From Chitinophaga pinensis (GTDB lineage Bacteria; Bacteroidota; Bacteroidia; Chitinophagales; Chitinophagaceae), in assembly GCA_945862385.1 (NCBI GenBank), contig CAMAXV010000001.1, positions 1-64,000 on the forward strand: 64,000 nt of DNA, in the 5' to 3' direction. The notes beneath the pieces are model-generated. The model ran no database searches and was not told the DNA's origin. It saw only the letters and a program-made list of their open reading frames with translations. Each line of letters begins with the position of its first letter. Positions within the stretch are counted from its first letter, which is position 1. Below, piece after piece: positions 29,172 through 52,801 of this stretch. The position numbers were made by a program, and so were the translations under genes.

Positions 29172-31886
29172 TTACCTGGCGGTAGTGAATCTTATTGCTG
29201 TGGACCATGGTCCGGTTAAACCATTGTTAATAGCCCTTACTCTCCAATAATACTGGGTTCTTCCTGCCAGTGCAGCAGCTACTGTATATGTAGATTGATC
29301 TAGATTTATTTCATTAATCACTGTTGTTGTGAAAGCATTTGAATTAGATACCTGCAACTGATAGCTGGTTATTCCTTGAACTGCATTCCAGGTCAATACC
29401 GGAGTTCTGGATACCCCGGTTGCCCTGTCTGCTGGAAGCTGCAATACGGGGGCGTTCAGTGTTAAGGATGGGGGTGTGACCACTGCCGCTGATGTAGTAA
29501 AAGCGTGAGGAGTGGACCACTGACTGGTACCTGTACTGGTAATTGTGCTGATTCTCCAGTAGTAGGTATCTCCAAAGGCTAGTCCAGAAATGGGCTGACT
29601 GGTTGCACTCAGGTTATTCAATGTCAGCAGAACTGTAGTAAATGCAGGATTATCAGAAAACTGGAGATTATATCCAGTTGCATTCGTTACAGGCGACCAG
29701 CTGAGTGTTAGGTTTTGAGATTGGTTTACAGCACCATTGGCAGGTAAGGATAAGACGGGAGCAACTGCAGAATTTACTGTTGTGGTGAATGAATTTGCGG
29801 TAGACCAAGCACTTACGCCAGATGCAGCAGATGCCCTTATTCTCCAGTAGTAAGTAGCCCCATAACCTAATCCTGAGATTGGCTGACGGTTTTGGGTCAA
29901 TCCGTTGAGTGTTAAAATTATCTTACTGAAATCAGGCTTATCTGAAAACTGAAGATCATAGCCAGTAGCTGTATTTACAGGATTCCATGTCAGCGTAAGT
30001 AATGTTGGCTGATTGGTGGCCCCTGTTGCGGGTGAAACCAATACCGGCGCTGAAACAGTATTCAATGCTGTTGTAAAAGAAGAAGCAACTGACCAGGTTC
30101 CTGTTGCACCTGCAATATTCGCTCTTATTCTCCAGTAATAAGTTGCTCCAAAACCCAGTCCTGAGATAGGCTGACGGGTTTGTGTAAGTCCGTTCAGAGT
30201 CAGCAAAACCTTACTAAAATCAGCATTGTCAGAAAACTGAAGATCATAAGAAGCTGCTCCGTTTACAGGATTCCATGTAAGGCTTAGTAGCGTAGGCTGG
30301 TTTGTTGCACCTGAAACAGGAGTAGATAATATAGGTGCTGCTACAGTATTCAATGCTGTGGTAAAGGAAGCAGGTGTTGACCAAAGTCCGGAACCTGCAG
30401 CATTATTTGCCCTTATCCTCCAGTAGTAGGTTGCTCCGAATCCCAATCCTGAAATAGGCTGCCTCGTTTGCTTTAAACCATTCAGGGTGAGTAAAACAGT
30501 ACTGAAATCTGCTTTATCTGAAAACTGTAAGTCATACGACAGTGCGCCAATACTGGTATTCCAGCTCAGTGATAGAGCCTGTGGTAAATCAACTGATGCA
30601 GTTTCAGGTGATGTGAGAACAGGTGCTCCCGGTAACGGGGGTGCATTAAAATTCACCTGTAAAAGTAAATTTGCTGTTGCAGCAGGCACTTCTGTTATTT
30701 CATCCGCTACTGCAAAACTTTTTAAACCAAGCTGTACCTGTTCCGGTGTAGATCCAGGAAATTTTTCTAAATAAAGTGCAGCGGCACCAGTAACATGTGG
30801 TGAAGCCATCGAAGTTCCTGACATTACATTGATATCGTTTATACCTGTGTGCCATGCAGATGTGATACTTGAACCAGGAGCCAGTATATCTACTTCCGGA
30901 CCAAAATTTGAAAAAGCTGACCATTGATCGGTATTGGTTACAGACCCTACTGTGATGGCCTCTGTTACCCTGCCTGGTGAAGTGTTTGCTGTAGCTTCAG
31001 CATTATTCCCAGCTGCAACAGAAATGACTATGCCATCAGCAATGGCTCTTCTGATAGCTTCGTCAAGTGAAACTGCTAGTGCACCACTTATTGATACATT
31101 ACCTACAGCTGGTTTTGATGTGTGATTTGAGATGGCCCAATCAAGTCCTGCAATAATCTGGGTAAATGTGCCGGTTCCGAATCTATCCAACACTTTGACA
31201 GGAATCAAGTTAATTGCTTTTGCAACACCATAACGCGAACCTCCAACCACTCCTGCAACATGTGTGCCATGTCCATTATCATCATCTGGAGCTGCACCTG
31301 CAGTAATTGCATTGAATCCGGGTCTTATTCTTCCTGTAAATTCATTGTGGTCAGGTTTGATACCTGTATCAAAAATATATGCGTCGACTGTAGATCCGGT
31401 TGTTTCGTATGTGAATGAACCGCTCAATGGAGCTGATACCTGATCAATCCTGTCTAATCCCCATGGTGCCGTAAATTGTGTACCGCTGATTTTCATTACC
31501 TGATCCTGCTCTACATATTTTACATTTGGTTCTTTCCTTACATTATCCAAGTCCTCTGCAGTAAGCTGAATTGTGAAGCCTTTCAAAGCATACCGAAAGG
31601 TCTTATCTTTTTGGGAAGACAGCAACTTTGTAATTTTATCTGATTCAAAATCAAGATCTTTCCAATCGACATTATCTTTGAGTACAACCACATAGTAAGC
31701 ACTAAGCGGAGGTGTTCCTGTTCCATTACTACTAAACAACGGCGCAAGTCCATCTTCCCCTTCTTCAAGGGTAAAATTCTTCTTGACAAATGATTCCTGT
31801 TCTTTCTTACATCCACCCAACAACATCACAACAGAGAGAATTACGAACATCGCTGTGTGAACTCCAAATGTTAAATTTCTTCCCAT
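29172..31886 (-). CDS. S8 subtilisin-like lipoprotein peptidase with five FN3-like modules
   Basis: A 904-residue precursor of the same design as its neighbours: lipobox LLGGC, I9-like propeptide (AYYVVVLKDN, VKYVEQDQV), S8 domain with IFDTG (Asp), GHGTHVAG (His) and GTSMASPHVTG (Ser), then five FN3-like modules of about 96 residues. Three of these are nearly identical (SYDLQFSD, LTLNGLTQTRQPISGLGFG), so the array has probably grown or been homogenised recently by recombination. The modules likely bind glycans or protein or act as stalks. Its own terminator at 29110-29146 suggests separate transcription from the 27017 gene. Confidence 0.95.
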   Translation of the reverse strand: MGRNLTFGVHTAMFVILSVVMLLGGCKKEQESFVKKNFTLEEGEDGLAPLFSSNGTGTPPLSAYYVVVLKDNVDWKDLDFESDKITKLLSSQKDKTFRYALKGFTIQLTAEDLDNVRKEPNVKYVEQDQVMKISGTQFTAPWGLDRIDQVSAPLSGSFTYETTGSTVDAYIFDTGIKPDHNEFTGRIRPGFNAITAGAAPDDDNGHGTHVAGVVGGSRYGVAKAINLIPVKVLDRFGTGTFTQIIAGLDWAISNHTSKPAVGNVSISGALAVSLDEAIRRAIADGIVISVAAGNNAEATANTSPGRVTEAITVGSVTNTDQWSAFSNFGPEVDILAPGSSITSAWHTGINDINVMSGTSMASPHVTGAAALYLEKFPGSTPEQVQLGLKSFAVADEITEVPAATANLLLQVNFNAPPLPGAPVLTSPETASVDLPQALSLSWNTSIGALSYDLQFSDKADFSTVLLTLNGLKQTRQPISGLGFGATYYWRIRANNAAGSGLWSTPASFTTALNTVAAPILSTPVSGATNQPTLLSLTWNPVNGAASYDLQFSDNADFSKVLLTLNGLTQTRQPISGLGFGATYYWRIRANIAGATGTWSVASSFTTALNTVSAPVLVSPATGATNQPTLLTLTWNPVNTATGYDLQFSDKPDFSKIILTLNGLTQNRQPISGLGYGATYYWRIRASAASGVSAWSTANSFTTTVNSAVAPVLSLPANGAVNQSQNLTLSWSPVTNATGYNLQFSDNPAFTTVLLTLNNLSATSQPISGLAFGDTYYWRISTITSTGTSQWSTPHAFTTSAAVVTPPSLTLNAPVLQLPADRATGVSRTPVLTWNAVQGITSYQLQVSNSNAFTTTVINEINLDQSTYTVAAALAGRTQYYWRVRAINNGLTGPWSTAIRFTTAR
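29478..30635 (-). repeat. 288-bp tandem DNA repeats encoding FN3-like modules
   Basis: Within the 29172 gene the same segments recur at a 288-bp interval; for example, the CTCCAGTA(G/A)TA stretch is near 29835, 30125 and 30413. This corresponds to 96-residue modules. The central copies are most similar and the outer ones have diverged. The length is a multiple of three, so copy-number change would keep the frame. Confidence 0.85.
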
Positions 31887-31938
31887 AACTATGTGATTTT
31901 ATTTGTTGGTGTTATGACAAGGGGAAGTTTTAAGGGTT

Positions 31939-33774
31939 TTATCTGGTTGTATACTGTCTGGTAGCAGACCATACTCCCGCTCCGGAAGCATTGACTGCGC
32001 GAACACGCCAGTAGTATCTCGTTCTTGCACCTAGTGCAGGAGAAATAGTCACATTTCTTGCTGTGATTCCATTTCTGCTGTATGCAATTGTTGCAAAAGT
32101 GTTTACAAGTGACACCTGCACTTCATAGGTTGTAGCCCTGGCTGCCGCTCCCCAGGAAAGCCTGGTTGCTGTCAATTGATTGGTTGCGTTATTTCTTGGA
32201 GAACTTAAAGAAGGTGCAGCTGGTAATGCCAGTGGTGCCCTGGTGGTGAAGCTGCGTGCAGCAGACCATGCACTGGTTCCTGCGGTATTGGTAGCACTGA
32301 CTCTCCAGTAGTAAACTGTACTATTAGACAGGCCAGTTAATGCACGGGAGGTTGCGGTTAATCCGTTCAGGTCTACAAGTGTTGTTGCGAATGTTGAGGA
32401 TGTAGACACCTGCAGGTTATAGGATGAAGCACCCGTGGATGCCGCCCAGCTTAGTGTAGGAGTAAGTGACTGGTTGGTTGCATTGGCAGCCGGCGAAGAA
32501 AGCACAGGCACTGCAGGTGCAGGAACAGGTGGTACTACACCGAAATTTATTTGCAGCAATTCATTCACAGTTCCTGCAGGAACTCCGCTGATTCGGTTTA
32601 CAGCTGCAAAACTTTTAAGGGCGGCCTGAACCTGGGATGTGGTTGCACCCGGACTGTATTCCAGGTACAAAGCTGCAGAACCTGCCACGTGTGGTGATGC
32701 CATTGATGTACCTGAAAGGGAAGCCGTTGCCGTATTGCTTGTAAAATAAGCTGAAGTAACAGCGGATCCCGGAGCAAGGATATCAACAAGCGCACCACGG
32801 TTAGAATAAGTGGCCAAGGCGTCTGTTCTGGTTGTAGCACCTACTGTGATTGCTTCAGGCGTACTTGCCGGCGAATAATTGGCTGCACTGAGTCCATTAT
32901 TACCTGCAGCAACACACATGATGATACCATCTGCAATGGCTCTTCTAACTGCGTCATTTAAGGCAGCTGAAACACCCCCACCGAGAGACATGTTGCCAAC
33001 AGCAGGTCGTGTTGTATGATTTGCAACTGCCCAGTCGATACCGGCAATTATTTGTGCATAGGTACCTGAACCCAGGTTATTCAATACTTTAACGGGTATC
33101 AGGGTAACGCCTTTAGCAACACCATATGTTGTTCCCCCAACTGTTCCTGCAACATGGGTACCATGTCCCTGGTCGTCATTGGCAGTAGCAGTGGTATTAA
33201 TGGCGTTGTAACCGCTTCCCAACCTGCCTGAGAACTCTGCATGATCAAGTCTGATGCCTGTATCAAAAATATAGGCATCTACAGCAGAACCATTTGTGTT
33301 GTAGGTGTATGTAGTACTTAGAGGAAGTGAGTTTTGGTCAATGCGATCCAATCCCCACGTTGCACCATTCTGGGTTGCTACAATTGTTGCAATTTGATTT
33401 TGTTCAATATATTTTACTTTCGGGTTGCGGCGCATTTCTTCAATTGCCGCCGGCGTCAATTTTGAACTGAACCCTTTCAGTGCATGCTTGTAAGTTCTAT
33501 CGCGTGTCACTTTTGCAGAACCACACATCCGCTCAGACTCTCCATCCACTTCATTTTCATTGACATCATCATTGAAAACAACAATATAACTATCTTCCAG
33601 TCCGGGTTGAACCTTGGTGCTTTTATAAACAGGTGCAATACCATCTTCCTGGAGGGCATTGTCTAACAAAAACTTCTGCTTTACTGTCTGACCAGCTTCT
33701 TTTGAACAAGATACTGCTAGTAACAACATAAGAAGAGAAACAGAAAAAAAACGGGAAATGTTTGGAGTGTGCAT
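31939..33774 (-). CDS. S8 subtilisin-like lipoprotein peptidase with two FN3-like modules
   Basis: A 611-residue precursor, closest to the 27017 gene product: lipobox LLAVSC, I9-like propeptide (SYIVVFNDDVNENEVD, KYIEQNQIA), S8 domain with IFDTG, GHGTHVAG and GTSMASPHVAG triad motifs, a Pro/Ala linker, and two FN3-like modules ending in RQYTTR. The three paralogues lie head to tail over 6.8 kb. The shared C-terminal ending (R-x-[FY]-T-T-x-R) does not match the usual type IX secretion signal I know, so the export route after lipidation is unclear. Confidence 0.95.
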   Translation of the reverse strand: MHTPNISRFFSVSLLMLLLAVSCSKEAGQTVKQKFLLDNALQEDGIAPVYKSTKVQPGLEDSYIVVFNDDVNENEVDGESERMCGSAKVTRDRTYKHALKGFSSKLTPAAIEEMRRNPKVKYIEQNQIATIVATQNGATWGLDRIDQNSLPLSTTYTYNTNGSAVDAYIFDTGIRLDHAEFSGRLGSGYNAINTTATANDDQGHGTHVAGTVGGTTYGVAKGVTLIPVKVLNNLGSGTYAQIIAGIDWAVANHTTRPAVGNMSLGGGVSAALNDAVRRAIADGIIMCVAAGNNGLSAANYSPASTPEAITVGATTRTDALATYSNRGALVDILAPGSAVTSAYFTSNTATASLSGTSMASPHVAGSAALYLEYSPGATTSQVQAALKSFAAVNRISGVPAGTVNELLQINFGVVPPVPAPAVPVLSSPAANATNQSLTPTLSWAASTGASSYNLQVSTSSTFATTLVDLNGLTATSRALTGLSNSTVYYWRVSATNTAGTSAWSAARSFTTRAPLALPAAPSLSSPRNNATNQLTATRLSWGAAARATTYEVQVSLVNTFATIAYSRNGITARNVTISPALGARTRYYWRVRAVNASGAGVWSATRQYTTR

Positions 33775-38364: not shown

Positions 38365-38802
38365 ATGATACCAAACGCGATTACCGAACTCGGCTTTGAG
38401 CCCACAGAGTGCCTCAGTACACTGTATGTGACATCCGGTAGAAACCAGTTTGTTGCTGGTTTGTTCAACCGCAACAATCAGTTGTACATTGCCATCAGGT
38501 GTGGCAGAAACAAATACCTGATGGTTCCAATCAGGGAAAAACAAATTGATGCATTGCTACGCGGACAAACATCGTTGATGGGAATTATAAAAGGTGCAGA
38601 TGAGATGTATGCAATACCAGAATACAAGACTGTACATGGAATCAGGGTTCGGCTGGCGTTGAAATTATTTTATCAGGCAACATTCGGACAAATCAAGACT
38701 ATTCCCAATGCATTTTATCAGTGGAATGAATATTACTTCAAGCGGGAAATGATTAAGCAAAATACCTATGCCCCTCGGGCAGCATACCTCACGATGGGGT
38801 AA
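38365..38802 (+). CDS. Hypothetical protein, paralogue of the 39867 gene
   Basis: A 145-residue soluble protein I cannot assign to a named family. It shares its whole length with the product at 39867-40277: ITELGFEPTECLSTLYV against IIENGFESIGLLSTMYI at the N-terminus, and GQIKTIPNAFYQWNEYYFKRE against GKIKTISNAFYLWNEYSFSRE near the C-terminus. No signal peptide or known catalytic motif is visible. The two copies flank a YceI gene. Predicted as mixed beta then alpha. Confidence 0.75.
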   Translation: MIPNAITELGFEPTECLSTLYVTSGRNQFVAGLFNRNNQLYIAIRCGRNKYLMVPIREKQIDALLRGQTSLMGIIKGADEMYAIPEYKTVHGIRVRLALKLFYQATFGQIKTIPNAFYQWNEYYFKREMIKQNTYAPRAAYLTMG

Positions 38803-39866: not shown

Positions 39867-40277
39867 ATGCCAGCTATTCCAAATATCATCATTGAAAACG
39901 GCTTTGAATCGATTGGTTTGTTGAGTACAATGTATATCAACAAGTCCACGCAGGATTTTTTTGCAGGGTTATATACAAAGGGAGACAGGCTTCAATTGGT
40001 GATACGTCTTGCTGAAGATGAACATATTTACATCGCAGTCAATGAGAAGCTTATTCTTGGATTATTTAAGGGTGAATACAGTTTACTGGAGCTTGTAAGA
40101 AATGCATCCAGGATCGATAGTATACCCAGTGATGAGCAAAGCACTGAAAAAAGAACAAGGTATATATTCAAAATGTTCTACCGCACCGCACTGGGCAAGA
40201 TCAAGACTATATCCAATGCTTTTTATTTGTGGAATGAATACAGTTTCAGTCGCGAGCTCAGGAAACACCTGGTGTGA
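39867..40277 (+). CDS. Hypothetical protein, paralogue of the 38365 gene
   Basis: A 136-residue relative of the protein at 38365-38802, with the same N-terminal (GFES then LLSTMYI) and C-terminal (IKTISNAFYLWNEYSF) signatures and similar length. Function unknown. The 3' end abuts a remnant of a nuclease-type transposase on the other strand at 40280-40403, so this may be the edge of an insertion or rearrangement. Confidence 0.75.
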   Translation: MPAIPNIIIENGFESIGLLSTMYINKSTQDFFAGLYTKGDRLQLVIRLAEDEHIYIAVNEKLILGLFKGEYSLLELVRNASRIDSIPSDEQSTEKRTRYIFKMFYRTALGKIKTISNAFYLWNEYSFSRELRKHLV

Positions 40278-40631: not shown

Positions 40632-42326
40632 GTGGGCTCTACATTAAAAGAAAAGCTAGATACTTTTTCACCAACCCTAATAGATAAGGCCAAACGCCTC
40701 AAGGTACGAGAGTGTGATGAAGAATCAAAAGGCAGTTTTGTTGCTTATGTTGATGAGGGCAATGATAGTTACGATGTCAAAGTAGTTGTGGGAAAGAAAA
40801 ATGAATTGATTGAAGAACAATGTGACTGTGGAAAGGGAAATAAAACCTGCATTCATGAGGTAGCCTTGATGTTATATTTAACATCGGCAAATCAAGCGAC
40901 CAAAACCAAAGGATCTGGTAAGAAGAAAATATCCCCTGCAGAAGCTGTATTAGAAAGTATAGATGTTGAAACATTGAAGGACTGGCTTTTGAACTTGTTT
41001 GAAAAGAACAAAGACATTGAATTGACATTTTTGACACTATTCAATAAAAATGAAAAGAAATATACTGCTGAAGATGCATTCAATCTTACGCTACAAGGTA
41101 GAAAAGCAGTATTGAAAAACAGGAGAAAGGCGGAAGTATCTGAAGTTCGGAAGATAGTGGCATTATGGAGCGATCTTCATTCCCCAATTCTTGAGGGTTA
41201 TTGGTCTAAACCAAGCGATGAATTGTCTTTTCAGGCATTTATGACTATACTTAGCTCAGTGACTGATCAGTTTCAAAGTATTGAAACCGGGAGTAAGGCC
41301 ATGCAGATTTACGTAAAAGAAATATTAAATAAAACCATTCCCCGTTTACTAAATAGAGAGGTTGAACAATGGAAATTCAGTGTTGGCAAATTTTTTGAAT
41401 TCATTCAGTTGAACAATATCCTGATCGCTGAATATGTAGTGCATTTCCTTTTAGACTTATCTGTTCTGTTGGATACACATAGAAAAATCTATATTGTTGA
41501 AAAGACACTGAAACAATATCAATCAATTAAAAACGCTGCATATTTCTTTCCGATTTCATTTCATTTGCGCATACTTAATTCCGTATCACAGGAAGTTGAA
41601 CTAGCAGATCAGATTGACACTTTTCAGCCTATTCAGTATCAAAATGACTATAACTTAAAATTGATTGATATCCTGATTGATAGAAAACACTATGACCGGG
41701 CAGAAAGAATAGCATTGGATCAAATCAAGAAAAATGTAAAGGAAGAATTCGACTACGTATATTACTTGCGCCTTCGAAAACTATACCTAGCTTCTCAGAA
41801 TTTCGAGCAATTTGAAATCATTTACCCAAAAATCTTCCTGTTAACTTTCAATTATGAGGAATTTCAGCTCTTGTATGAGCGTAAAGCAGGCGATGAAAAA
41901 AAGAATTGGGGAAAACAATGCTATCAAAAGGCATATAAAGCTGCTAAGGGAGCGAACGTTATAGCAGAGGTATTCTGTTTTACATATTTATACCACCATC
42001 AATTAATTGATAAAATGGTAGAACTGGTTAAAGAAACCAGAGATTGGGAAACAACCTATCGTTATTTTGAAGAAATGTATACGGAAAATGCTAACTTATT
42101 CCTTTACAACATGATTTACCGGTCAGATTTTTTTGCAATTTGGCACAACATATACGATACAGATGATGAATTGGATTTTTGTCATGTTATCATAGAAAAG
42201 ATTTATCCACGTTATCCTTTAGTTGATATTTATGCTGCGCTCAATGCAGTTGCTGTTGCGTTAAAGAAATACCAGAGGGGACGTTTCACAGAAATACTCC
42301 TTGATACAATTCGTCCGAAAAGATGA
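40632..42326 (+). CDS. SWIM zinc-finger protein
   Basis: A 564-residue protein starting at a GTG. Near the N-terminus CDCGKGNKTCIH (C64, C66, C73, H75) is a SWIM zinc finger (CxCx(n)CxH), a nucleic-acid or protein-binding module. The rest is long, helix-rich and repeat-like (TPR-like in character) without a helicase motif. In many bacteria a SWIM protein precedes a Snf2-type helicase; here the next gene is an unknown 412-residue protein instead. The 3' end is 61 bp before the partner's ATG. Low GC suggests transfer. The Snf2 partner could have been lost or be elsewhere. Confidence 0.8.
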   Translation: MGSTLKEKLDTFSPTLIDKAKRLKVRECDEESKGSFVAYVDEGNDSYDVKVVVGKKNELIEEQCDCGKGNKTCIHEVALMLYLTSANQATKTKGSGKKKISPAEAVLESIDVETLKDWLLNLFEKNKDIELTFLTLFNKNEKKYTAEDAFNLTLQGRKAVLKNRRKAEVSEVRKIVALWSDLHSPILEGYWSKPSDELSFQAFMTILSSVTDQFQSIETGSKAMQIYVKEILNKTIPRLLNREVEQWKFSVGKFFEFIQLNNILIAEYVVHFLLDLSVLLDTHRKIYIVEKTLKQYQSIKNAAYFFPISFHLRILNSVSQEVELADQIDTFQPIQYQNDYNLKLIDILIDRKHYDRAERIALDQIKKNVKEEFDYVYYLRLRKLYLASQNFEQFEIIYPKIFLLTFNYEEFQLLYERKAGDEKKNWGKQCYQKAYKAAKGANVIAEVFCFTYLYHHQLIDKMVELVKETRDWETTYRYFEEMYTENANLFLYNMIYRSDFFAIWHNIYDTDDELDFCHVIIEKIYPRYPLVDIYAALNAVAVALKKYQRGRFTEILLDTIRPKR

Positions 42327-42387
42327 GGTATCTTTAATAGAAAATATTCTTTTTATATATCCAACATTTGTTAGAAATATTAATATC

Positions 42388-43626
42388 ATGCCAAGGGATT
42401 ACAATTTGATCAGAGAGATTTGCAAGAGCCATTCCCATATCAGTGGAGTATTGATTGATGAAAAAATGATGTATTACGCTGATGAAAAAGAAAATTTAGG
42501 TAAAAAAATAAAAGCTAAACTGAAGTATTACGAGCATGTTACAAAATCATGGCCTGCATCATATATTAATTTTACCATTGCGCAATTAATTATTCACCAG
42601 ATTTTCAAAAGAGATGGCTTAATTCATAAATACATGAATCATGCTTTTGTAAAATCATTTTCAGAAGCAGATCAACAATTTCTAAAGGAACATCAGAAAA
42701 AACCATGGCGGTATGTATTTGCAAGTATTGTTTCAACCCCATCAGCTGATTTCTATGAAATGGAAGATGTCTTTTCAGAAGATCTTTTCCTGTTTTACTC
42801 TCCATCTTTAAAAGACACACTAAAAGAAACCACTCCAACCTTATGGTTACTTTTAATTGGGTACAATGGGCATTGTTGGCAGTCGTTTGGACTGAATATT
42901 CCACTCGCTAATGTGACCCCAGATGATATTTTTTATTTTGCAACGGAGATCAATCCAAGGATTGAAGATGAAGAGGATATCATTGACGACATGGACATCA
43001 ATCCTATACCTTATTTGATGTTGATGAACCTCGGAATTTCACCTATAATACATCACAAAGGCCACAAATTATCCCATTGGAGTGCAGAAAATCATGTAAC
43101 AAAATACAATTTTGATGCTTCTAAATTGAACCAGTCATTTTTCATTGCCTGGAATGCAGATGTGTTCGAATTAAAACTGAAACGGTATAATCAGTTTCCA
43201 CATTGTGCAGTTGCCTACTATGATGAAAGCAATAATATCTTATTTCGCTATGCATTTACAGAGCAAGGTTTTTCAAAATTAACACAGGCGTTGAATAAAA
43301 TGGGATTCAATCTGTTCGACGAAGCAGAAATAAATGTATCCTTTCACATGCATCAACTGCTAGAGTCCATGTTAAAAAAAGAAATCATAATGAATCCTTA
43401 TGATTCATTGTTTGAAAAAAATAATGATTCATCTTCATCAGATGAAGAGAATAAAGAGGAAGAGGAATTGATTAACCTCAGAAAATTCTTGGATGTTGCG
43501 ATTATTAGATACAACAACAATGAACCTGTGGATGTTGATTCAATTGCCGAACAATTAGGTGCCGACATTGAAATGGCCAGAAGAGTATGGAAAAGTTTTA
43601 GTGACACTTTGAAAAGAAAGAAATAA
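42388..43626 (+). CDS. Unknown partner of the SWIM protein, with C-terminal HTH-like region
   Basis: A 412-residue protein I do not recognise. It is acidic in places: a run of Asp, Glu and Ser (SSSSDEENKEEEEL) lies before a C-terminal 60 residues. That end (FLDVAIIRYNNNEPVDVDSI and onward to RRVWKSFSDTLKRKK) looks like a helix-turn-helix or small helical bundle. The middle contains WLLLIGYNGHCWQSFGLNI and PYLMLMNLGISPII. No signal peptide and no NTPase motif. The ATG at 42388 is chosen; an upstream TTG at 42301 would overlap the SWIM gene by 26 bp. Its tight linkage points to joint function with the SWIM protein. Confidence 0.7.
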   Translation: MPRDYNLIREICKSHSHISGVLIDEKMMYYADEKENLGKKIKAKLKYYEHVTKSWPASYINFTIAQLIIHQIFKRDGLIHKYMNHAFVKSFSEADQQFLKEHQKKPWRYVFASIVSTPSADFYEMEDVFSEDLFLFYSPSLKDTLKETTPTLWLLLIGYNGHCWQSFGLNIPLANVTPDDIFYFATEINPRIEDEEDIIDDMDINPIPYLMLMNLGISPIIHHKGHKLSHWSAENHVTKYNFDASKLNQSFFIAWNADVFELKLKRYNQFPHCAVAYYDESNNILFRYAFTEQGFSKLTQALNKMGFNLFDEAEINVSFHMHQLLESMLKKEIIMNPYDSLFEKNNDSSSSDEENKEEEELINLRKFLDVAIIRYNNNEPVDVDSIAEQLGADIEMARRVWKSFSDTLKRKK

Positions 43627-43682: not shown

Positions 43683-44843
43683 ATGATACAAAGGATTGCT
43701 AAGACCAGGTTGGTTGAACTCGCTGGAAGGTTCAAGGCAGTTGCCATCACCGGCGCACGCCAGACAGGCAAGACAACATTGGTTAAGCAGGTATTCAAAA
43801 ACAAACCCTACGTATCATTGGAAAACCCGGATACCAGAAATTTTGCTTTGGATGATCCCCGTGGATTTTTAGCCTCTTATCCAAAAGGAGCTGTCCTGGA
43901 TGAGGTACAAAGGACTCCGGAGTTATTTTCCTATTTACAGGAAGTGCTAGACAATTCAAAAGAGAAAGGCTTGTTCATCCTGACAGGTTCAAATAATTTT
44001 TTACTCCAACAAAAGATCTCTCAAACACTCGCAGGAAGAATTGGCATCATGCACCTTTTACCTTTTTCGATGGCAGAACTAAAAAAAGCACGATTACTGC
44101 CAGAATCGGATGACGTACTGATGCTTAATGGCTTCTATCCTCCTGTATATGACCAACAGATACCGCCCCAGGACTGGTGTCCCAATTACATTCATACCTA
44201 CATAGAAAAAGATGTAAGGCAAATCAAAAACATTACTGATCTGATCACTTTTGAAAGATTTGTCAAACTCCTTGCGGGGAGATCTGCTCAGGAATTGAAT
44301 TACAGTTCAATTGCAGTGGAAACCGGAGTGGATGTAAAAACAATTCAGTCATGGATCGGCATTTTGGAAAGTAGTTTTATCATTCATCTGCTGAAGCCAC
44401 ACCATAAAAATTTCAACAAAACCATTGTCAAAAGACCCAAACTATACTTTTACGATTCAGCGCTTGTCTGTTATCTGTTAGGTATCAGAAATATAACACA
44501 GCTCCAAACCCACCCCCTGCGGGGGCATATATTTGAGGGCATGGTTGTAACAGAGCTGATCAAAAAAAGAACTAACCTCGGATTAGACAGTAACCTCTAT
44601 TATTGGCGAGATAAAACAGGACATGAAATTGACGTTATCATTGACCAGGGCGATATATTGATCCCTTTAGAAATCAAATCCGGAATGACATTAAATAATG
44701 ATTTTTTCAAAAACATCAATTATTGGCAAGAACACAGTGGCAGTTCCAAATCAATATTACTTTACACTGGTCATCAAACACAGCATAGAAGTGATGGAAA
44801 AAAAATCATGAACTGGAGGGAATTGATAAATTTAGATCTATAA
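43683..44843 (+). CDS. AAA ATPase with DUF4143 C-terminal domain
   Basis: A 386-residue protein of the AAA_14/DUF4143 family. Walker A is GARQTGKT (residues 24-31), Walker B is in GAVLDEVQR (about 69-77), and sensor I is in FILTGSNNF. The C-terminal DUF4143 domain contains YYWRDKTGHEIDVIIDQGDI followed by LIPLEIKSG. The E-x-D ... E-x-K pattern resembles a PD-(D/E)XK nuclease core. These ATPases are common in variable genome regions; their role is unknown. It is a single gene with its own promoter, ending one base before the convergent 44845 gene. Confidence 0.93.
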   Translation: MIQRIAKTRLVELAGRFKAVAITGARQTGKTTLVKQVFKNKPYVSLENPDTRNFALDDPRGFLASYPKGAVLDEVQRTPELFSYLQEVLDNSKEKGLFILTGSNNFLLQQKISQTLAGRIGIMHLLPFSMAELKKARLLPESDDVLMLNGFYPPVYDQQIPPQDWCPNYIHTYIEKDVRQIKNITDLITFERFVKLLAGRSAQELNYSSIAVETGVDVKTIQSWIGILESSFIIHLLKPHHKNFNKTIVKRPKLYFYDSALVCYLLGIRNITQLQTHPLRGHIFEGMVVTELIKKRTNLGLDSNLYYWRDKTGHEIDVIIDQGDILIPLEIKSGMTLNNDFFKNINYWQEHSGSSKSILLYTGHQTQHRSDGKKIMNWRELINLDL

Positions 44844-44844
44844 T

Positions 44845-45411
44845 TTATTCGTTAAGTAAGATTACATGCTGATCCCAGAATTCCTTACAATCCTTGTATA
44901 ATGCAGGTTTCATGCCATGATGCGGCATCGGCATTGCATGATCACCAGGAAATGCTGTAATCAATTTTAATCCTCGCTTTAACGGCTTGAGTATAATCAT
45001 AAAATGAGGTGTTGAGGGAAGTTCATTAACAAGCAGATGCTGAACAAGATAACCTCTGTTTCGCTTTAAAAATATATTGTTCTGTTGTTGTATGGTCAGG
45101 CTGTCAAGAGGAATGACTGCATTTGTTCCACAACCATTTGGAAACGAAGATAGATCTGCTGTAGCAACTATTCTGATATTGCCATTTGCTTCAGTCAGTG
45201 TTTCATATTTTCCATCTTTAAGACGAGTTGCAAGTGATTCCAGATCATTCGCAAATTCAGGAAAAAATCTGGAGCCGAGAGTTGACAGTTGTAACTGAAT
45301 CTTCTCCTCACTGATTCCCACTGAACGCAGCTTGTCGATTGTGGATACACCTGGCTCCAGGAGATGGAGTAAGAAATGGATATGAGCGTAAGTATCAAAT
45401 ATAAATTCCAA
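44845..45411 (-). CDS. Hypothetical protein, 188 residues
   Basis: I do not recognise this protein. It starts MEFIFDTYAHIHFLLHLLEP and has a C-terminal half with HFMIILKPLKRGLKLITAFPG and HAMPMPHHGMKPALYKDC. The His- and Pro-rich end is unusual for an ordinary cytoplasmic enzyme and somewhat recalls secreted or toxin-like nuclease domains, but that is only an impression. No signal peptide. It converges with the AAA ATPase gene and is divergent from the large helicase gene (104-bp gap). Confidence 0.6.
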   Translation of the reverse strand: MEFIFDTYAHIHFLLHLLEPGVSTIDKLRSVGISEEKIQLQLSTLGSRFFPEFANDLESLATRLKDGKYETLTEANGNIRIVATADLSSFPNGCGTNAVIPLDSLTIQQQNNIFLKRNRGYLVQHLLVNELPSTPHFMIILKPLKRGLKLITAFPGDHAMPMPHHGMKPALYKDCKEFWDQHVILLNE

Positions 45412-45515: not shown

Positions 45516-48500
45516 ATGCGTCCAGCGTCTCCGCGTTTCCTGGAAACCCTCAAAAACAAACTGTCCTTTGGGAGCACCCGCACCATTCTCCTGAACTGCC
45601 TGCCTGCCAGAAGCGCCTCCCGTCTGGCCATCAACGACATCGACCTGCTGAAAAAGGATTTCTCCTCCTCCTTCGTAGAACAACTCTGCACGGTACCGGA
45701 CTTCGATATCAAAATACCGGTTACTTTCAAGACGCCTAAAACAACGGATGCGCCGCATGTTAAACAGGCGATCGAAGAGGAAAACACCAAAAAATCCAAA
45801 ATAGAAAGGAAACTGGTCAACATCAAATACGACCACGACGACATCCTCAAGGAACAGGGTATCGAGACCTTCGGCTTCGGTTTTCCTATCCTCGTCAGAC
45901 GAGATCCTTCAGACCCCACAAGCATCATCGTTGCGCCTTTACTGATCTGGCCGCTGGACCTCAAACAGGAATTTGACCGCAGCAAAACCTGGACCATCTC
46001 CCGGAAATCAGAAAAAGGGATTCAGGTGAATGAAGCCCTGCGTGCCTTCCTGAAATCAGAACAGCAGGTGGAGATGCCCTCCCTGCCGGAATCGGTAACG
46101 GATGATGGACTTGTTGATAAAACAGAACTGGAAACCTTTATCCAATCTCTGAAGGAAAAACTCTACATCAGTAATTCTGGCATGCACCAGTGGAACTACC
46201 TGGATGTTATCCCGGAACGAATCGACCTGCAAAAGGAAATACTTGGACAATCAAGGATCATCTTCAGCGGTGTATTTGGCATCTACAAAAGTCAGAAACA
46301 AAGCCTAATCAACGACCTGAGTGAAATGATCCGGATGATGGAATTATCCACTGACAACGACAATGGCGACACCTCCTTTCCGCTGGAATGGTCGCATGCC
46401 ACAACACCCATACAGGTTGATCCGAGTCAGCATAGCGTATTGCGCTCACTGATTAAAAAGGATAAAATTGTCATTCAGGGCCCTCCGGGAACTGGTAAAA
46501 GTCAGACCCTCACGGCCATCATCGCTGCAGCCTTGTCTGATCGCAAGAAAGTACTCGTAGTCTGCGAAAAACGCACAGCCCTTGAAGTCATCCGGCAGAA
46601 TATGATGAAGCGATATCCCTTTCTCGACAGGTCTATCGCCCTCATCGAAGATGTGGCTTCAGACAGAAATACCCTTGTTAAAAAAGCCAGGGAAAGAGAA
46701 ACCCAACCGGAAAAAGTAAAGATGGCCATGGGTATGGTGGCGGATTTCAAACGCCAAAACGCACAATTTGAATCGCTCATCGCTGCTACGGATGAACGTT
46801 ATACGCAATTGCTGGAACCCATAACAGCTGATCAGCGCTGGATGGATGCCGTTGCTGAATGGCTTTCCCTGGAAGTGCAAGCAGAACAACTTCCGGAACT
46901 GGAATGGATGGCCGAAAAAGTATCGAAACTGGGCATACCTGGAGATTATACTACTGTTGGCAGCGAGTTGGCTGTATTGAATAAACTGCATGATCTTACT
47001 GCAGCAAAACGCTCAACTTTTCTCAGGCTATTCAATCCGCTATTATCGCCTCAAGCCTTACTGGCTGTTCCGAAAAAAATCAGGTCGCTTAGTTTTGAAA
47101 TCTCCCTGATACTCAAAGACCTGGAAGAACTTTTGTCCAACTGCCTGCAAAACATCAACCAGTTTGCCCATCTTGAAACGGATGGGCTCCTGCAATTGGC
47201 TGATGAACTGAGTAATAATATCAAAACAACATCCACAGACCTCGCTGATCCGTCTCGGGTATCCCTGATGGAACACATCGTACTGCTGTTCAATAAAAAC
47301 CGCTCTAACATTCTCTTCGCTTCGAAGGAAGTCAAACGCTTACAGGATGTCATTCAGGAAGAATACAATGCTATAACTGGTTCTGAAAACACGATAACAG
47401 AGGCATCGCTGCTGGCTGATAAAATCAAGACGGAAAAAGAGTCTTTAACCAAGCTCATCATCGATACTGAATGTAGCATCAATACTCTGAATGACAAACA
47501 TGCAAGCCCGGAAGAAATAACAGCCTGGGAAAAAAGCAATGAAGCCTGGCAGTCCATCTGCAATGAACTCCGTGAAATCTATCCATCTACGGTAGCCGAC
47601 TGTTCCAGTTTGCCACTCCGTGAGAAACAAAACTGCTGGCATGCACTCAGGGATTTCATCAATGCACAATTGGCTGATGAAACAGCAGTGCTGCATTACA
47701 TCAATTGGAAAGTGGCTTTCCTGAATAGCCCTGACTTCATGAAAGAATTGGTGAATCTTTTCAATGCCCGTCAAACGCAGGACTGGAGCCGAACCTGGCG
47801 CACGATTGAATTGTATACCCTGCTTTCAACAACTTACCAGGAGAAAAATTATCCGGAAAACGACCATCACCTGCATCAAATACTTTTACTGTGGCAAGAT
47901 ATGAACAGGAAGCAAGACGTCATGATCCACGATAATATCCATGTCTGGTTCAATGATGGATTGATGAAATATGAGCAGAGCAAATTGGGATTCAGGAAGC
48001 TCTTCAACCTGCGCGGCAACAACGGGGAATCAAGAAATTCACTGCGCCGCATCATCCATCAGCATCCGGATGCCTTTACCGATATGCATCCATTGGTATT
48101 GGCCAATCCCACTGCAGTGAGCACCCTGTTTCCTTTGGTTAATAACTTGTTCGACCTGGTCATTTTTGATGAAGCCAGTCAGCTCCGCATTGAAGACACT
48201 TTCAGCAGTTTGCTGAGAGGCAAAGCAGCCATCGTTTCAGGCGACAGCCAGCAGATGCCGCCTTCCAGTTATTTTGAAAGCAGTATGTCCATTCTTCAGC
48301 CAAGTGCCGATGAAGACGAGTATGAAGACGATCAGGAAAAACTGATGGAAGACCTGGAATTAGAAATGGCTAACCGGGAATCACTGCTGGAATGGGCTAT
48401 AGATGAGGGCTACGAGCAAACCTACCTCGACATGCACTACCGTTCCAGACATCCCGACCTGATTGAATTCTCCAACACCTGCTTTTACGGATCCAGGTTG

Positions 48501-49457
48501 ATTCCCATGCCAGGATCTGTTGAAAGTGCACCCATTAATTTCAGGCAGGTAAACGGACTTTATGAATCTCGCATGAACCTGAAAGAAGCCCAGGAAGTGA
48601 TTAGGATTCTGCGAGAAGAAATTCCAACCGGAAAAACAGTCGGCATTGCCACTTTCAATCTCGTACAACGAAATCTTATCCTCGATTTAATCAATAAGCT
48701 GAGGTATGAGGATGGCCGTTTTCATGAGCAGATGACTGCACTCGATCAACTCGGATTTTTTGTCAAGAACCTCGAAAACATTCAGGGTGATGAGCGAGAC
48801 ATCATCATCATTTCCACCACATTCGGACTGCGAAAGGATGGTAGTTTTAAGATGGCGTTTGGTCCGATCGGACAAAAAAACGGATACCGCTTACTCAATG
48901 TAATCATCACCAGGGCCAGGGAAAAAATTTACATGCTCACTTCCATTCCAACTGAAAGACAGCAGGAGTTCAGGCAGTATCTGGAAAGCGACAAACGGGT
49001 AAGTGGCAAAACAGGTTTACTCGCTTACCTCATTTACTGCAGGCTTGTCAGCTCCGGGAACCACGAAGCCAAACAAGATTTACTGAAAGAAATCCGAAAC
49101 AATATTGCCGGAAACAATGAGGCTACGCAACGCAAGGAAACAGAAGCACCTTTTGAACAGCAGGTTGCGCAATGCATCAGTAAACATTATGGTGTTGAAA
49201 GTGTGTCGATGAAACATCCCTGCGGCGGTTTCATCATAGATATTCAATTCACACACCCCGAAACCGGCAAGCGATTCGCGATAGCCACTGATGGTTCCGC
49301 TTATCACAGTGATATATTGTTCTGGCACAATGATGCCTACCGGCAGGAGCAACTGGAAAAAGAAGGATACCATTTCATCAGACTCTGGTCAGCCGTCTGG
49401 TGGAGCAATAGAATCGGAGAAGAGCAAAAGTTGATGGAGGTTTTGACAGATATTTAA
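45516..49457 (+). CDS. SF1 (Upf1-like) helicase with DUF4011-like N-terminus and C-terminal Vsr/MTES_1575-like nuclease
   Basis: A 1313-residue protein. Residues 1-250 resemble DUF4011 (FLETLKNKLSFGSTRTILLN; GFGFPILVRRD then PLLIWPLDL). Helicase motifs: I, GPPGTGKSQT (about 322); II, VIFDEASQL (about 881); III, VSGDSQQMPP; V, ENIQGDERDIIIIS; VI, LNVIITRARE. About 560 residues between motifs I and II form a long helical, coiled-coil-rich insert. The last 100 residues (PFEQQVAQCISKHYG, FIIDIQF, ATDGSAYHSD, YRQEQLEKEGYHFIRLWSAVWW) fit the Vsr-like MTES_1575 endonuclease fold; the first acidic residue before the Asp-Gly appears as Ala. The order is close to the DUF4011-helicase-Vsr (Hhe) defence protein. 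It is encoded as a single gene. Confidence 0.85.
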   Translation: MRPASPRFLETLKNKLSFGSTRTILLNCLPARSASRLAINDIDLLKKDFSSSFVEQLCTVPDFDIKIPVTFKTPKTTDAPHVKQAIEEENTKKSKIERKLVNIKYDHDDILKEQGIETFGFGFPILVRRDPSDPTSIIVAPLLIWPLDLKQEFDRSKTWTISRKSEKGIQVNEALRAFLKSEQQVEMPSLPESVTDDGLVDKTELETFIQSLKEKLYISNSGMHQWNYLDVIPERIDLQKEILGQSRIIFSGVFGIYKSQKQSLINDLSEMIRMMELSTDNDNGDTSFPLEWSHATTPIQVDPSQHSVLRSLIKKDKIVIQGPPGTGKSQTLTAIIAAALSDRKKVLVVCEKRTALEVIRQNMMKRYPFLDRSIALIEDVASDRNTLVKKARERETQPEKVKMAMGMVADFKRQNAQFESLIAATDERYTQLLEPITADQRWMDAVAEWLSLEVQAEQLPELEWMAEKVSKLGIPGDYTTVGSELAVLNKLHDLTAAKRSTFLRLFNPLLSPQALLAVPKKIRSLSFEISLILKDLEELLSNCLQNINQFAHLETDGLLQLADELSNNIKTTSTDLADPSRVSLMEHIVLLFNKNRSNILFASKEVKRLQDVIQEEYNAITGSENTITEASLLADKIKTEKESLTKLIIDTECSINTLNDKHASPEEITAWEKSNEAWQSICNELREIYPSTVADCSSLPLREKQNCWHALRDFINAQLADETAVLHYINWKVAFLNSPDFMKELVNLFNARQTQDWSRTWRTIELYTLLSTTYQEKNYPENDHHLHQILLLWQDMNRKQDVMIHDNIHVWFNDGLMKYEQSKLGFRKLFNLRGNNGESRNSLRRIIHQHPDAFTDMHPLVLANPTAVSTLFPLVNNLFDLVIFDEASQLRIEDTFSSLLRGKAAIVSGDSQQMPPSSYFESSMSILQPSADEDEYEDDQEKLMEDLELEMANRESLLEWAIDEGYEQTYLDMHYRSRHPDLIEFSNTCFYGSRLIPMPGSVESAPINFRQVNGLYESRMNLKEAQEVIRILREEIPTGKTVGIATFNLVQRNLILDLINKLRYEDGRFHEQMTALDQLGFFVKNLENIQGDERDIIIISTTFGLRKDGSFKMAFGPIGQKNGYRLLNVIITRAREKIYMLTSIPTERQQEFRQYLESDKRVSGKTGLLAYLIYCRLVSSGNHEAKQDLLKEIRNNIAGNNEATQRKETEAPFEQQVAQCISKHYGVESVSMKHPCGGFIIDIQFTHPETGKRFAIATDGSAYHSDILFWHNDAYRQEQLEKEGYHFIRLWSAVWWSNRIGEEQKLMEVLTDI

Positions 49458-49657: not shown

Positions 49658-50002
49658 TTACTTTTTGGAAGCACTGATCATTGAATCCATCCATTCAGCA
49701 AGTTCTGGCAGATTCTCTACCACTGTGTTCCAGACAATTTCGAGATCGACACCAAAATAATGATGAATCAGTCGATCCCTCATACCGGAAATTTCTTTCC
49801 ATTGAACTAATGGGAATTGTGACTTAAAATCAGGTGGAATTTTTTTAGATGCTTCGCCTATAATTTCTAAACTTCTGACGATAGCTCTATTTAAAATACC
49901 ATCATTAAAAAAATTATCAAAATCTTTTCCTTGGGTTTGTATAATGCAAAAGTCAACCTCCTGCTTAATATGATGGAGAAACTCAGTTAACGATGGTTGC
50001 AT
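49658..50002 (-). CDS. HepT-like (DUF86) HEPN toxin
   Basis: A 114-residue all-helical protein. SGMRDRLIHHYFGVD is the HEPN RNase motif (R-x4-6-H, followed by Y) of HepT/DUF86. RAIVRSLEIIGEA is the other conserved helix. HepT cleaves RNA and is neutralised when MntA AMPylates the Tyr next to the motif. Its gene overlaps the upstream MntA-like gene by 20 bp, as usual for this toxin-antitoxin pair. Confidence 0.9.
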   Translation of the reverse strand: MQPSLTEFLHHIKQEVDFCIIQTQGKDFDNFFNDGILNRAIVRSLEIIGEASKKIPPDFKSQFPLVQWKEISGMRDRLIHHYFGVDLEIVWNTVVENLPELAEWMDSMISASKK

Positions 50003-50300
50003 ATTGAACCTCTTTCAGAATATGTGGACCAATATAGGGACTTAAAGATTCCTTTGTTATCAACTCAACCTTTCTGCCCATGAGTTCTTCAAGAAATTCC
50101 CCTAAACCAACAAGATTATGAATATTTTTTGCTCCTTTAGAAAAATGAACGAGAAAGTCAATATCAGAGGAATCAGTCTGCTCGTCCCTAATAAAAGACC
50201 CGAAAAGACCTATCTTCTCAACACCAAACCCAATTAGACGGTTTTGATTTTCCTCAAGGAGGCAGAAAATAACGCTCTTATCTAGTGAGGTGAGTTGCAT
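49983..50300 (-). CDS. MntA-like minimal nucleotidyltransferase (antitoxin)
   Basis: A 105-residue nucleotidyltransferase. GLFGSFIRDEQTDSSDIDFLVHF contains the G-S-F/x-R ... S-D-I-D catalytic block, and KVELITKESLS carries the third acidic residue. It is the antitoxin of the HepT/MntA module and inactivates the HEPN partner by adding AMP. A sequence TAATTTAG a few bases upstream of its start (minus strand) resembles a -7 element. Confidence 0.9.
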   Translation of the reverse strand: MQLTSLDKSVIFCLLEENQNRLIGFGVEKIGLFGSFIRDEQTDSSDIDFLVHFSKGAKNIHNLVGLGEFLEELMGRKVELITKESLSPYIGPHILKEVQYATIVN

Positions 50301-50512: not shown

Positions 50513-50872
50513 ATGAAAACACTGCTTACATCCATTCTGGTACTGCTCAGCTATTGTACCTACAGTCAATGCTACATCTCCACCTATTCGGGAAACCAGC
50601 GGGTACTCAAGGTGGATGGCGATTATGTCTACACTTATTCGGGTAACCAGCGTCAGTACAAATTCGATGGGGAATACCTGGTGACCTACAATACCTACAA
50701 ACGGTTGCTGAAATTCGACGGACAATACATCATCCAATACAGCACCAACAAGCGCCTGGCAAAGATGCAGGGGGAATACCTGATAGAATACAATGGCAAC
50801 AAAAGAATAGCCAAGCTGGACTGTCCGGGTGCACGCAGTGCTATGGCCGCTACAGCCTATTTCTTCCTCTAA
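50513..50872 (+). CDS. Small secreted protein made of five 17-residue repeats
   Basis: A 119-residue protein with a signal peptide (LLTSILVLLSYCTYS). The mature part is almost entirely five imperfect 17-residue units of the form Y-x-x-x-Y-S-G-N-Q/K-R-x-x-K-x-D-G-E: YISTYSGNQRVLKVDGD, YVYTYSGNQRQYKFDGE, YLVTYNTYKRLLKFDGQ, YIIQYSTNKRLAKMQGE, and a last partial unit. Such Tyr-rich short beta-type repeats resemble WG or MORN-like folds but do not fit either exactly. Secreted; function unknown. Its 3' end overlaps the convergent nucleotidyltransferase gene by four bases. Confidence 0.8.
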   Translation: MKTLLTSILVLLSYCTYSQCYISTYSGNQRVLKVDGDYVYTYSGNQRQYKFDGEYLVTYNTYKRLLKFDGQYIIQYSTNKRLAKMQGEYLIEYNGNKRIAKLDCPGARSAMAATAYFFL

Positions 50873-51174
50873 CTTTTCCTGTAAAATACCTTACCTACCC
50901 GCTCAATGTGAGCACTTAGATTAGGTGCATTCAAATTATCGAAATCTGATAAATCAACTTTATATGGAAAATTCAGATCTTCAATATCCTGCCAGATATT
51001 GCTCATGATTTTCCTGTTGATACCCTTGCCTTTAACAGTGATATCAATATCCGACCCATTCCTAAAATTTCCTTTTGCCCTGGAGCCATAAATAATGACC
51101 TCATCAACCTCATTATAGCGGCGAAAAACCTCCTGCAATCTATCAATGGTGCTATCGTTGAGTCCGAAATTCAC
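50869..51174 (-). CDS. Minimal nucleotidyltransferase (MNT family)
   Basis: A 101-residue protein with the nucleotidyltransferase core IIYGSRAKGNFRNGSDIDITVKG (GSRAKG and SDID) and a later acidic YKVDLSDFD strand. It pairs with the HI0074-type gene just upstream, overlapping it by four bases in the ATGA manner. The pair is the second MNT module in 2 kb but belongs to a different subtype from MntA/HepT. Confidence 0.92.
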   Translation of the reverse strand: MNFGLNDSTIDRLQEVFRRYNEVDEVIIYGSRAKGNFRNGSDIDITVKGKGINRKIMSNIWQDIEDLNFPYKVDLSDFDNLNAPNLSAHIERVGKVFYRKS

Positions 51175-51593
51175 AAAAACTGATTCATGGTTTGATAAAA
51201 TGTTCTGAGTAACCTGATATTGACTTTTACAATCTGTTCATAAGCCTCCGTTATAATCTGTGGATCATACGCATGAACTGTAATATTGCGTGTTTCAAGC
51301 ATGTCCATCCACGGTTGTCCTTCTTCAATTAACCCCTTCTGAAATGCTTCACGGGTTGCACTTCGTGAACCAACAATACCTGTCATCCCCTCATACTCCA
51401 AAAAGTCTTTCATCACCTTCCATGCCAGCTCATGTGTAAACTCAAAATACTGAATGATGCCTGCCCTTATCAGCTCGCGTTCGTCATTACGATAGGCTTC
51501 AACAGCCTGCTCCAGCTGTAATAACGCCTTGCCATAATTTTGAAACCGCTGTTTCCAGCGAATATCACCCTGCCTCTCGTCTGCCTGTGTCAT
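51171..51593 (-). CDS. HI0074-family nucleotidyltransferase partner (substrate-binding, HEPN-like fold)
   Basis: A 140-residue helical protein. IRWKQRFQNYGKALLQLEQ at the start, GIIQYFEFTHELAWKVMKDFLEYEG in the middle and MLETRNITVHAYD near the end are diagnostic of the HI0074-type partner of minimal nucleotidyltransferases. The R-N-x-T-x-H segment occupies the position of the HEPN catalytic motif. The ATG at 51591-51593 is used because the family start follows it; the longer frame adds 16 residues. Confidence 0.9.
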   Translation of the reverse strand: MTQADERQGDIRWKQRFQNYGKALLQLEQAVEAYRNDERELIRAGIIQYFEFTHELAWKVMKDFLEYEGMTGIVGSRSATREAFQKGLIEEGQPWMDMLETRNITVHAYDPQIITEAYEQIVKVNIRLLRTFYQTMNQFL

Positions 51594-51673
51594 GAAACAA
51601 AATTCACACTTTTTTGAAAATCCAACAGTGTTTTTTGACACAAATCAACCGTTTTAACACAGGATTTTGGCAG

Positions 51674-52681
51674 TTAACCGCCCTGATACTGGGCCAATGA
51701 TTGCTGAAGTGTCAACTTAATCTCCTCCTGCAAACTCACCGGTGAAAGCACCTTGCATTGGTCGCCAAAAGAAAGTACGAGATTTTTCAACTCTACCGTA
51801 TTAAAAACATACAGCGTTACTTCAATACCTTCATCAGTTTCGCGGAGAACCTTCATGGAAGCATGTAGCGGACTCTCCAAAATCAAAGAGGCAATGGTTT
51901 TCGAAAAAAACAAATGTATGAGCTCAGGCTGCAAGGAATGACTATGGAAAATCCCGAGCGAATGCTTAAAATAGCCATCAGCATTAAACTGACTATCATC
52001 CACATAAGGCTCATTACTGCTCTCGATCTGCTCAATGCGAAATAACTTAAACAGATTGGTGCGGCCACCCTCGCCGATTTCGCGGGCATGGGCTACCATA
52101 TACCATTTGTTGCGGTATTCTTTCAACATATACGGACTCACCGTGCGATTCTTCGTAGGCTGTCCGTATGGTTTATAACTGATCAGCAAACTCTTCCGCT
52201 GCATGATGGCCCTGTATAAAACATGCAGCCACTTCACCCCTGTGTCAGTCCCCTGTTCATCCACCTGAATGAGTCTCGCACTTACACCCTGTTGCATATT
52301 TCGCAATACTTTGCTGCCGGTAATGCGACTGAAAACGGCGTCAAACTGATTGAAAAATGGCGTTCCCCTGAAAATGGCAAAAGCATGTCTGGCCATCTCC
52401 ATCACATCCTTTTCATCATTGCTGAGCGAGAACTTATCTATGGAATCATCCGGATCAGCATACTTGTATTTCCCCTCCCTGCAGTTTATTTCCACCAGAT
52501 AAATATCCTGCATGCTTTCGAGGTCGTTACGGATGGTCCGGTCAGTCACAGGCTTCTTGCCATCCTCCTCCAACTGTTCATTGACGATATCTGCCATCTC
52601 CCTGATACTATGCCACCTTGGAGAACGAAGCAATTCGTTGAGGATTTTAAATCGCTGGTCATTGTTCTTGTTGATGGGCAT
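51674..52681 (-). CDS. WYL-domain transcriptional regulator
   Basis: A 335-residue protein with an N-terminal winged helix (FKILNELLRSPRWHSIREMA, TDRTIRNDLESMQ) and a WYL domain containing YRNKWYMVAHARE, followed by the C-terminal WCX-like region. WYL regulators often repress defence genes. It lies between the second MNT module and the phosphoesterase gene (divergent, 120-bp gap), so it might control either or both. The ATG at 52679-52681 is chosen by homology. It is paralogous to the regulator at 13761-14768. Confidence 0.9.
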   Translation of the reverse strand: MPINKNNDQRFKILNELLRSPRWHSIREMADIVNEQLEEDGKKPVTDRTIRNDLESMQDIYLVEINCREGKYKYADPDDSIDKFSLSNDEKDVMEMARHAFAIFRGTPFFNQFDAVFSRITGSKVLRNMQQGVSARLIQVDEQGTDTGVKWLHVLYRAIMQRKSLLISYKPYGQPTKNRTVSPYMLKEYRNKWYMVAHAREIGEGGRTNLFKLFRIEQIESSNEPYVDDSQFNADGYFKHSLGIFHSHSLQPELIHLFFSKTIASLILESPLHASMKVLRETDEGIEVTLYVFNTVELKNLVLSFGDQCKVLSPVSLQEEIKLTLQQSLAQYQGG

Positions 52682-52801
52682 GGTGCTTTTTTTCCAATAA
52701 CAAGTTATGTATTTTATGCTGCCCTTCATCACCATTCCTACTCAATTGCTACTTGAAAATAAATGGCTTAACTTGTGTAGTAATTTTTAAAAACACCAAC
52801 T

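Follow-up and report, generated by a model that had tools for sequence, protein, structure and literature searches.

The gene under study lies on the forward strand of the window, the whole stretch of 64,000 nucleotides that was analysed, and its parts and neighbours are listed in Table 1. The ORF of 1313 codons is uninterrupted and occurs as a single copy genome-wide. The initial annotation had described a single-gene fusion of a DUF4011-like N-terminus, a split SF1 helicase and a Vsr/MTES_1575-like end, and this architecture is borne out by the intact ORF and by Pfam matches above the gathering cut-offs to DUF4011 (residues 82–179, 7.6e-10), AAA_11 (301–427, 4.2e-13), AAA_12 (955–1142, 2.8e-15) and MTES_1575 (1213–1310, 6.7e-17). 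The SF1 Upf1-like features of the protein, namely Walker A, DEAx and motifs V and VI, are all intact, and motif Ia is separated from motif II by about 520 residues. The long insert responsible for the split (about 430–840) had been taken as the sign of a divergent branch; we have dropped it as such a marker, because it is present across the whole superfamily, nuclease-less core relatives included. The DUF4011 domain is modelled with good confidence despite the absence of a PDB match. A fold match in the PDB was sought with the model of residues 1–300 (45516–46415) and by sequence search, and none was found. On the predicted model, this domain possibly represents an undescribed fold. Among solved structures, SMUBP-2/IGHMBP2 and Sen1/NAM7 are the best relatives for the helicase.

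Table 1. Features of the helicase-nuclease gene and its neighbours, in window positions.
Feature	Position	Strand	Remarks
AAA_14/DUF4143 ATPase, upstream	43683..44843	+	PADLOC candidate PDC-S01
Gene directly upstream of the helicase-nuclease	44845-45411	-	
Whole gene, DUF4011 – split SF1 helicase – MTES_1575 nuclease, 1313 aa	45516..49457	+	Intact ORF
N-terminal domain, residues 1–280, holding the DUF4011 match (82–179)	45516..46355	+	AlphaFold pLDDT 81.8; no PDB fold match
Walker A GPPGTGKS, residues 322–329	46479..46502	+	Invariant within the short branch
Variable insert splitting the helicase halves, residues 431–840	46806..48035	+	Fastest-evolving part
Walker B / motif II DEASQ, residues 885–889	48168..48182	+	
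Helicase motifs V and VI (NLENIQGDERD ... LLNVIITRA), residues 1085–1137	48768..48926	+	
EDxHD/Vsr-like nuclease domain, residues 1208–1313	49137..49454	+	E1214, D1242, H1264 and D1273 present
Codon 1257	49284..49286	+	Ala, versus Glu in every other EDxHD-intact relative examined
HepT-like and MNT toxin-antitoxin pair, downstream, convergent	49658..50300	-	
Second MNT / HepT-like (NTase_sub_bind) pair	50869..51641	-	
WYL-domain regulator	51674..52735	-	

Genes on the opposite strand flank the helicase-nuclease gene on both sides, in agreement with the proposal that it stands alone, and judged by this layout the gene is monocistronic. The MNT/HEPN modules and the WYL regulator reported nearby are indeed found downstream; the transposon remnants reported with them are not, as none was seen among the neighbouring genes tested. 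To the right of the locus lie lysine-pathway-like genes that are common to congeners, and the content to the left of these genes is unlike that of the window in every congener examined. The GC content falls from about 0.50 in the lysine-pathway-like genes to 0.35–0.45 around the helicase-nuclease gene. In the most AT-rich stretch (GC 0.35), two ORFs overlap at 40632–43626 on the forward strand. A SWIM-like zinc motif (CDCGKGNKTCIH) occurs in the first of them, both lack Pfam and PADLOC matches, and the second has relatives in three of the 61 genomes searched, its own included. Two small forward-strand ORFs at 38365–38802 and 39867–40277 resemble diverged paralogues of one another, and the former has no Pfam match.

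To place the protein among its relatives, homologues were gathered from about 1870 genomes plus genome contigs. A scan of the genome contigs with the single protein returned no relatives, and an alignment-based scan of the contigs recovered them. Contigs matched in the latter scan suggest Chitinophagales as the order and Saprospiraceae as family f19. A profile of the short proteins, built with the window protein included, gives more than 1250 bits for full-length members and less than 575 bits for other DUF4011 helicases. In trees from which the nuclease columns were left out, the short proteins cluster apart from PDC-S37-like and nuclease-less relatives; the window protein falls within this short branch and carries its N-terminal KLxxGNxRSIHLNALPGR-like signature. 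By profile and tree, therefore, the window protein is placed in a discrete Bacteroidota branch, of 1200–1600 aa, of the DUF4011 helicase superfamily. Walker A, DEASQ and motifs IV–VI are essentially invariant throughout the branch. The tree neighbours of the window protein are one protein from its own genus (G027, 49% identity), whose gene ends at a contig edge ahead of the nuclease domain, and three complete proteins from its own family (G234, G875 and G928, about 40%). The complete relatives in this clade retain the EDxHD site. The branch is present in two of 37 genomes of the genus and in 11 of 396 of the family. In Flammeovirga kamogawensis, a replicon of 640 kb (NZ_CP076130.1) also carries a relative of the short branch (35% over 78%), at 29179–32763. 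A separate DUF4011 helicase of 1052–1060 aa without a nuclease (L021 and L022, in genomes G039 and G060) has a gene order common to both genomes.

The nuclease end was compared with known folds and with its closest relatives. The AlphaFold model of residues 1196–1313 has a pLDDT of 85, and its best PDB matches are 3hrl (E 0.014) and I-Bth0305I, 3r3p (E 0.019), neither below 0.001; for these two the Foldseek probability is 1.00 and the TM-score 0.66–0.70 by target length, and a sequence profile search with the nuclease end also recovers 3hrl (1.9e-5). The Vsr-like fold that had been suggested thus stands as a model of Vsr/EDxHD type, although the PDB matches behind it are weak. I-Bth0305I is a representative of the EDxHD homing endonucleases (PMC3943268), and in Vsr the active site pairs residues D51 and H69 (PMC11879112). 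Assigned to EDxHD from the sequence and the predicted fold, the presumed tetrad of the window protein is complete. The first acidic nuclease residue had been reported as apparently replaced by alanine. The alanine in fact stands at E1257 of the 'IECDG' strand, the only changed residue among the strongly conserved acidic positions, and the metal-binding Asp, D1242, is kept, so a nuclease dead through loss of its first catalytic Asp is ruled out. No other EDxHD-intact protein examined in the branch has Ala at position 1257, and the adjacent residue is also altered in the window protein (C1258T). At positions highly conserved among 30 EDxHD-intact relatives, the window protein has changed 8 of 31 in the nuclease, versus 1 of 29 in sisters; for the second half of the helicase the figures are 7 of 104, versus 4–6 of 98 in sisters. 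With positions taken as independent, the excess in the nuclease gives p = 0.007 against the helicase and p = 0.03 against a sister. These differences make relaxed or altered selection on the window nuclease domain likely, with nuclease activity still possible.

Loss of the EDxHD site is a recurrent event in the branch. Of the 61 sequences that could be scored, 32 have the complete tetrad, eight have three of its four residues and 21 have lost it, and the tree needs at least six changes of state (seven under another criterion). Since the outgroups G054 and G050 have the full tetrad, loss is a likelier direction than gain; the likelier history is that the site was lost about six times while the helicase motifs persisted. 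In lineage g142, D1242 is replaced by Pro and E1257 by Phe, and the dead nuclease domain has a dN/dS of about 0.02–0.10, similar to that of the remaining protein. Thus, in at least one lineage selection still acts on a dead nuclease domain, which probably serves as a structural or nucleic-acid-binding part. The nuclease domain of family f20 evolves faster, with a dN/dS of 0.18–0.29 where measurable, near saturation. Two further arrangements were observed. In g182 (L074, L075 and L076) synteny is conserved and the C-terminus has no detectable nuclease domain; here the insert evolves fast (dN about 0.30) and the helicase is nearly fixed. Genome G337 carries two tandem family copies (L079:2008-11439), both with a degenerate nuclease, and an additional, separate copy with an intact EDxHD site (L097).

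The loci of the relatives differ in their surroundings. The nearest complete relative (G234, 40%) has a tyrosine integrase on one side and an hsdM-hsdS-hsdR type I restriction-modification operon on the other. Within a few genes of other nuclease-intact copies lie Avs4 (G664), SIR2-HerA and PDC-S02 (G200), a type IV restriction enzyme (L119) and DRT plus bSEFIR (L142). The nuclease-intact copy of G1082 has a JetA (Wadjet) gene directly downstream, and the remaining JetABCD genes appear to lie at the same locus as we read its ORFs. Defence neighbours within four genes are found at about six of 27 nuclease-intact loci versus one of 12 nuclease-lost loci; this locus-level contrast is not significant (p = 0.40) and was set aside. 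PADLOC matches to SspH/mad8 in the nuclease-lost set were discounted, their source being an FtsK.

Other members of the branch occupy resident positions. The gene is present in 11 of 13 genomes of family f20 and in all eight of genus g20, and its f20 flanking genes, which include a GMC oxidoreductase, an RRM protein and a hydrolase, are shared by three genera. Synteny is likewise conserved in g142, g147 and g182. Because g147 is fixed yet EDxHD-intact, nuclease loss and fixed position are imperfectly linked. Outside the branch, the nuclease-less relatives of G039 and G060 keep a constant place between core genes, and this helicase looks like a core gene. In P. aeruginosa, all isolates examined have a DUF4011 gene as a core flank of a defence hotspot (PMC10250203), so the superfamily includes core genes too. 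Conserved synteny with housekeeping repair genes had been named as the observation that would speak against a defence gene. Fixed positions among housekeeping genes do occur in several lineages, mostly with a dead nuclease, but the flanks are not repair genes, and such synteny is absent from the clade of the window protein itself.

We read the gene, with confidence barely above even, as a stand-alone, accessory and horizontally shuffled SF1 (Upf1/IGHMBP2-like) motor-nuclease acting against invading DNA, either phage or plasmid; for the window protein we infer the substrate, polarity, cleavage and phage protection. The N-terminal domain and the insert would recognize foreign DNA, or load onto it, at exposed single strands, ends or forks; the motor, driven by ATP, would translocate along this DNA and unwind it, and the C-terminal domain would nick or trim it. 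With the window nuclease probably under relaxed constraint, most of the work may already fall to the motor. A defence role is supported by the sporadic distribution and by the defence neighbourhoods of nuclease-intact relatives, and the Pfam domain matches, the solved helicase relatives, the integrase, restriction-modification and defence loci, the synteny that is not kept and the invariant helicase motifs all agree with the motor-nuclease reading. Against it stand the Hhe, PDC-S37 and ProA matches, which are at superfamily level, the fixation of the branch among housekeeping genes in several lineages, the low share of nuclease-intact loci with defence neighbours (about six of 27, versus one of 12 nuclease-lost loci), and the neighbours in the window, which are toxin-antitoxin-like and candidate defence genes rather than a proven system. 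Its main rival, which we hold to be rather unlikely, is a cellular Bacteroidota helicase for DNA or RNA maintenance (repair, fork or R-loop processing) that has been patchily lost and whose nuclease end is a nucleic-acid grip, not a cutter. Such a helicase would account for the fixed locus and synteny in several lineages (11 of 13 f20 genomes, three genera), for the absence of the nuclease site from most fixed lineages while the g142 domain keeps its low dN/dS (about 0.02–0.10), and for the constant place of the nuclease-less G039 and G060 genes between core genes; FASTKD4, in which a Vsr-like fold without nuclease activity binds RNA (PMC11879112), provides a precedent. It fits poorly with the sporadic occurrence in the clade of the window protein, where complete relatives retain the EDxHD site, and with the defence genes or integrase that are frequent neighbours of nuclease-intact members.

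Defence could also proceed without cutting, with a motor that displaces or blocks replication or transcription complexes of foreign origin and a window nuclease that is already inactive. E1257A, C1258T and the 8 of 31 changed nuclease positions (1 of 29 in sisters), next to an unaffected helicase, point in this direction, as does the independent loss of the EDxHD site on roughly six occasions; the complete presumed tetrad (E1214, D1242, H1264 and D1273) points away from it, and we judge this alternative improbable. That the gene is a decaying or neutral passenger would agree with the relaxed nuclease domain and the variable surrounding region, yet the full-length ORF, the intact helicase motifs and the 7 of 104 departures, versus 4 of 98 in sisters, make it very improbable. 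Beyond the function of the single protein, we tentatively consider, with rather less than even confidence, that a distinct Bacteroidota branch of defence-type DUF4011 helicase-nucleases lost the EDxHD site about six times, kept a strictly conserved helicase and was domesticated in several lineages to a motor whose pseudo-nuclease serves as a grip. The window protein would stand early on this path, with its four catalytic residues present but E1257 and other conserved nuclease positions already changed. If so, several nuclease-lost lineages would each hold a former defence enzyme turned fixed resident gene. Repeated loss of the nuclease site with the motor kept implies that the helicase alone carries a selected function. 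Mobile nuclease-intact and resident nuclease-dead copies form natural matched pairs that could separate defence from housekeeping.

Finally, we compared the window protein with named systems and solved structures. Hhe is a phage defence by its NCBIfam and PADLOC naming and by general knowledge, and to our knowledge no mechanism has been worked out for Hhe-like enzymes. Neither ProA, as an anti-phage protein, nor PDC-S37 was covered by any paper in the literature searched. The window protein reaches 315 bits with the NCBIfam Hhe model (NF042953; cut-off 2000) and 445 bits with the ProA model (NF058533; cut-off 1500), both below the cut-off; in PADLOC its best match is PDC-S37 (447 bits), with 227 bits for Hhe (PDLC02194). 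In calibration, G054 scores 1846 bits to PDC-S37 and 777 bits to PADLOC Hhe, and the nuclease-less G039 protein (1052 aa) scores 364 and 199 bits. As the latter scores almost as high as the window protein, the matches of the window protein are superfamily-level, and a profile match of a few hundred bits to Hhe or PDC-S37 does not identify a defence gene, given that a nuclease-less core helicase scores nearly equally. On these scores, the window protein is neither Hhe nor ProA nor PDC-S37 proper, and its kinship to them lies at the superfamily level. The likeness to Hhe proposed by the initial annotation therefore survives in domain order and in the single-gene layout, and only at superfamily level in sequence. 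Like the window protein, Hhe combines DUF4011, a split SF1 helicase with a long insert and a Vsr-like nuclease in one polypeptide; however, Hhe models are 1797–1911 long, versus 1313 aa, and an annotated plasmid Hhe shows 27.7% identity across 51%. The architecture of PDC-S37, a PADLOC candidate single-gene system, is identical to that of the window protein, whereas its high scorer G054 carries DUF3320 and sits outside the short branch. The ProA model (1903 positions) aligns to residues 438–1311. Among solved structures, the closest SF1 helicase core is that of IGHMBP2/SMUBP-2 (PDB 4b3f/4b3g), a cellular eukaryotic helicase that, unlike the window protein, has neither DUF4011 nor a nuclease end. 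The window nuclease differs from EDxHD/Vsr-type nucleases in forming the tail of a 1313-aa helicase and in missing E1257. With I-Bth0305I (3r3p) and the DUF559-like 3hrl it has in common the E, D, H and D residues, and its predicted fold matches theirs weakly.
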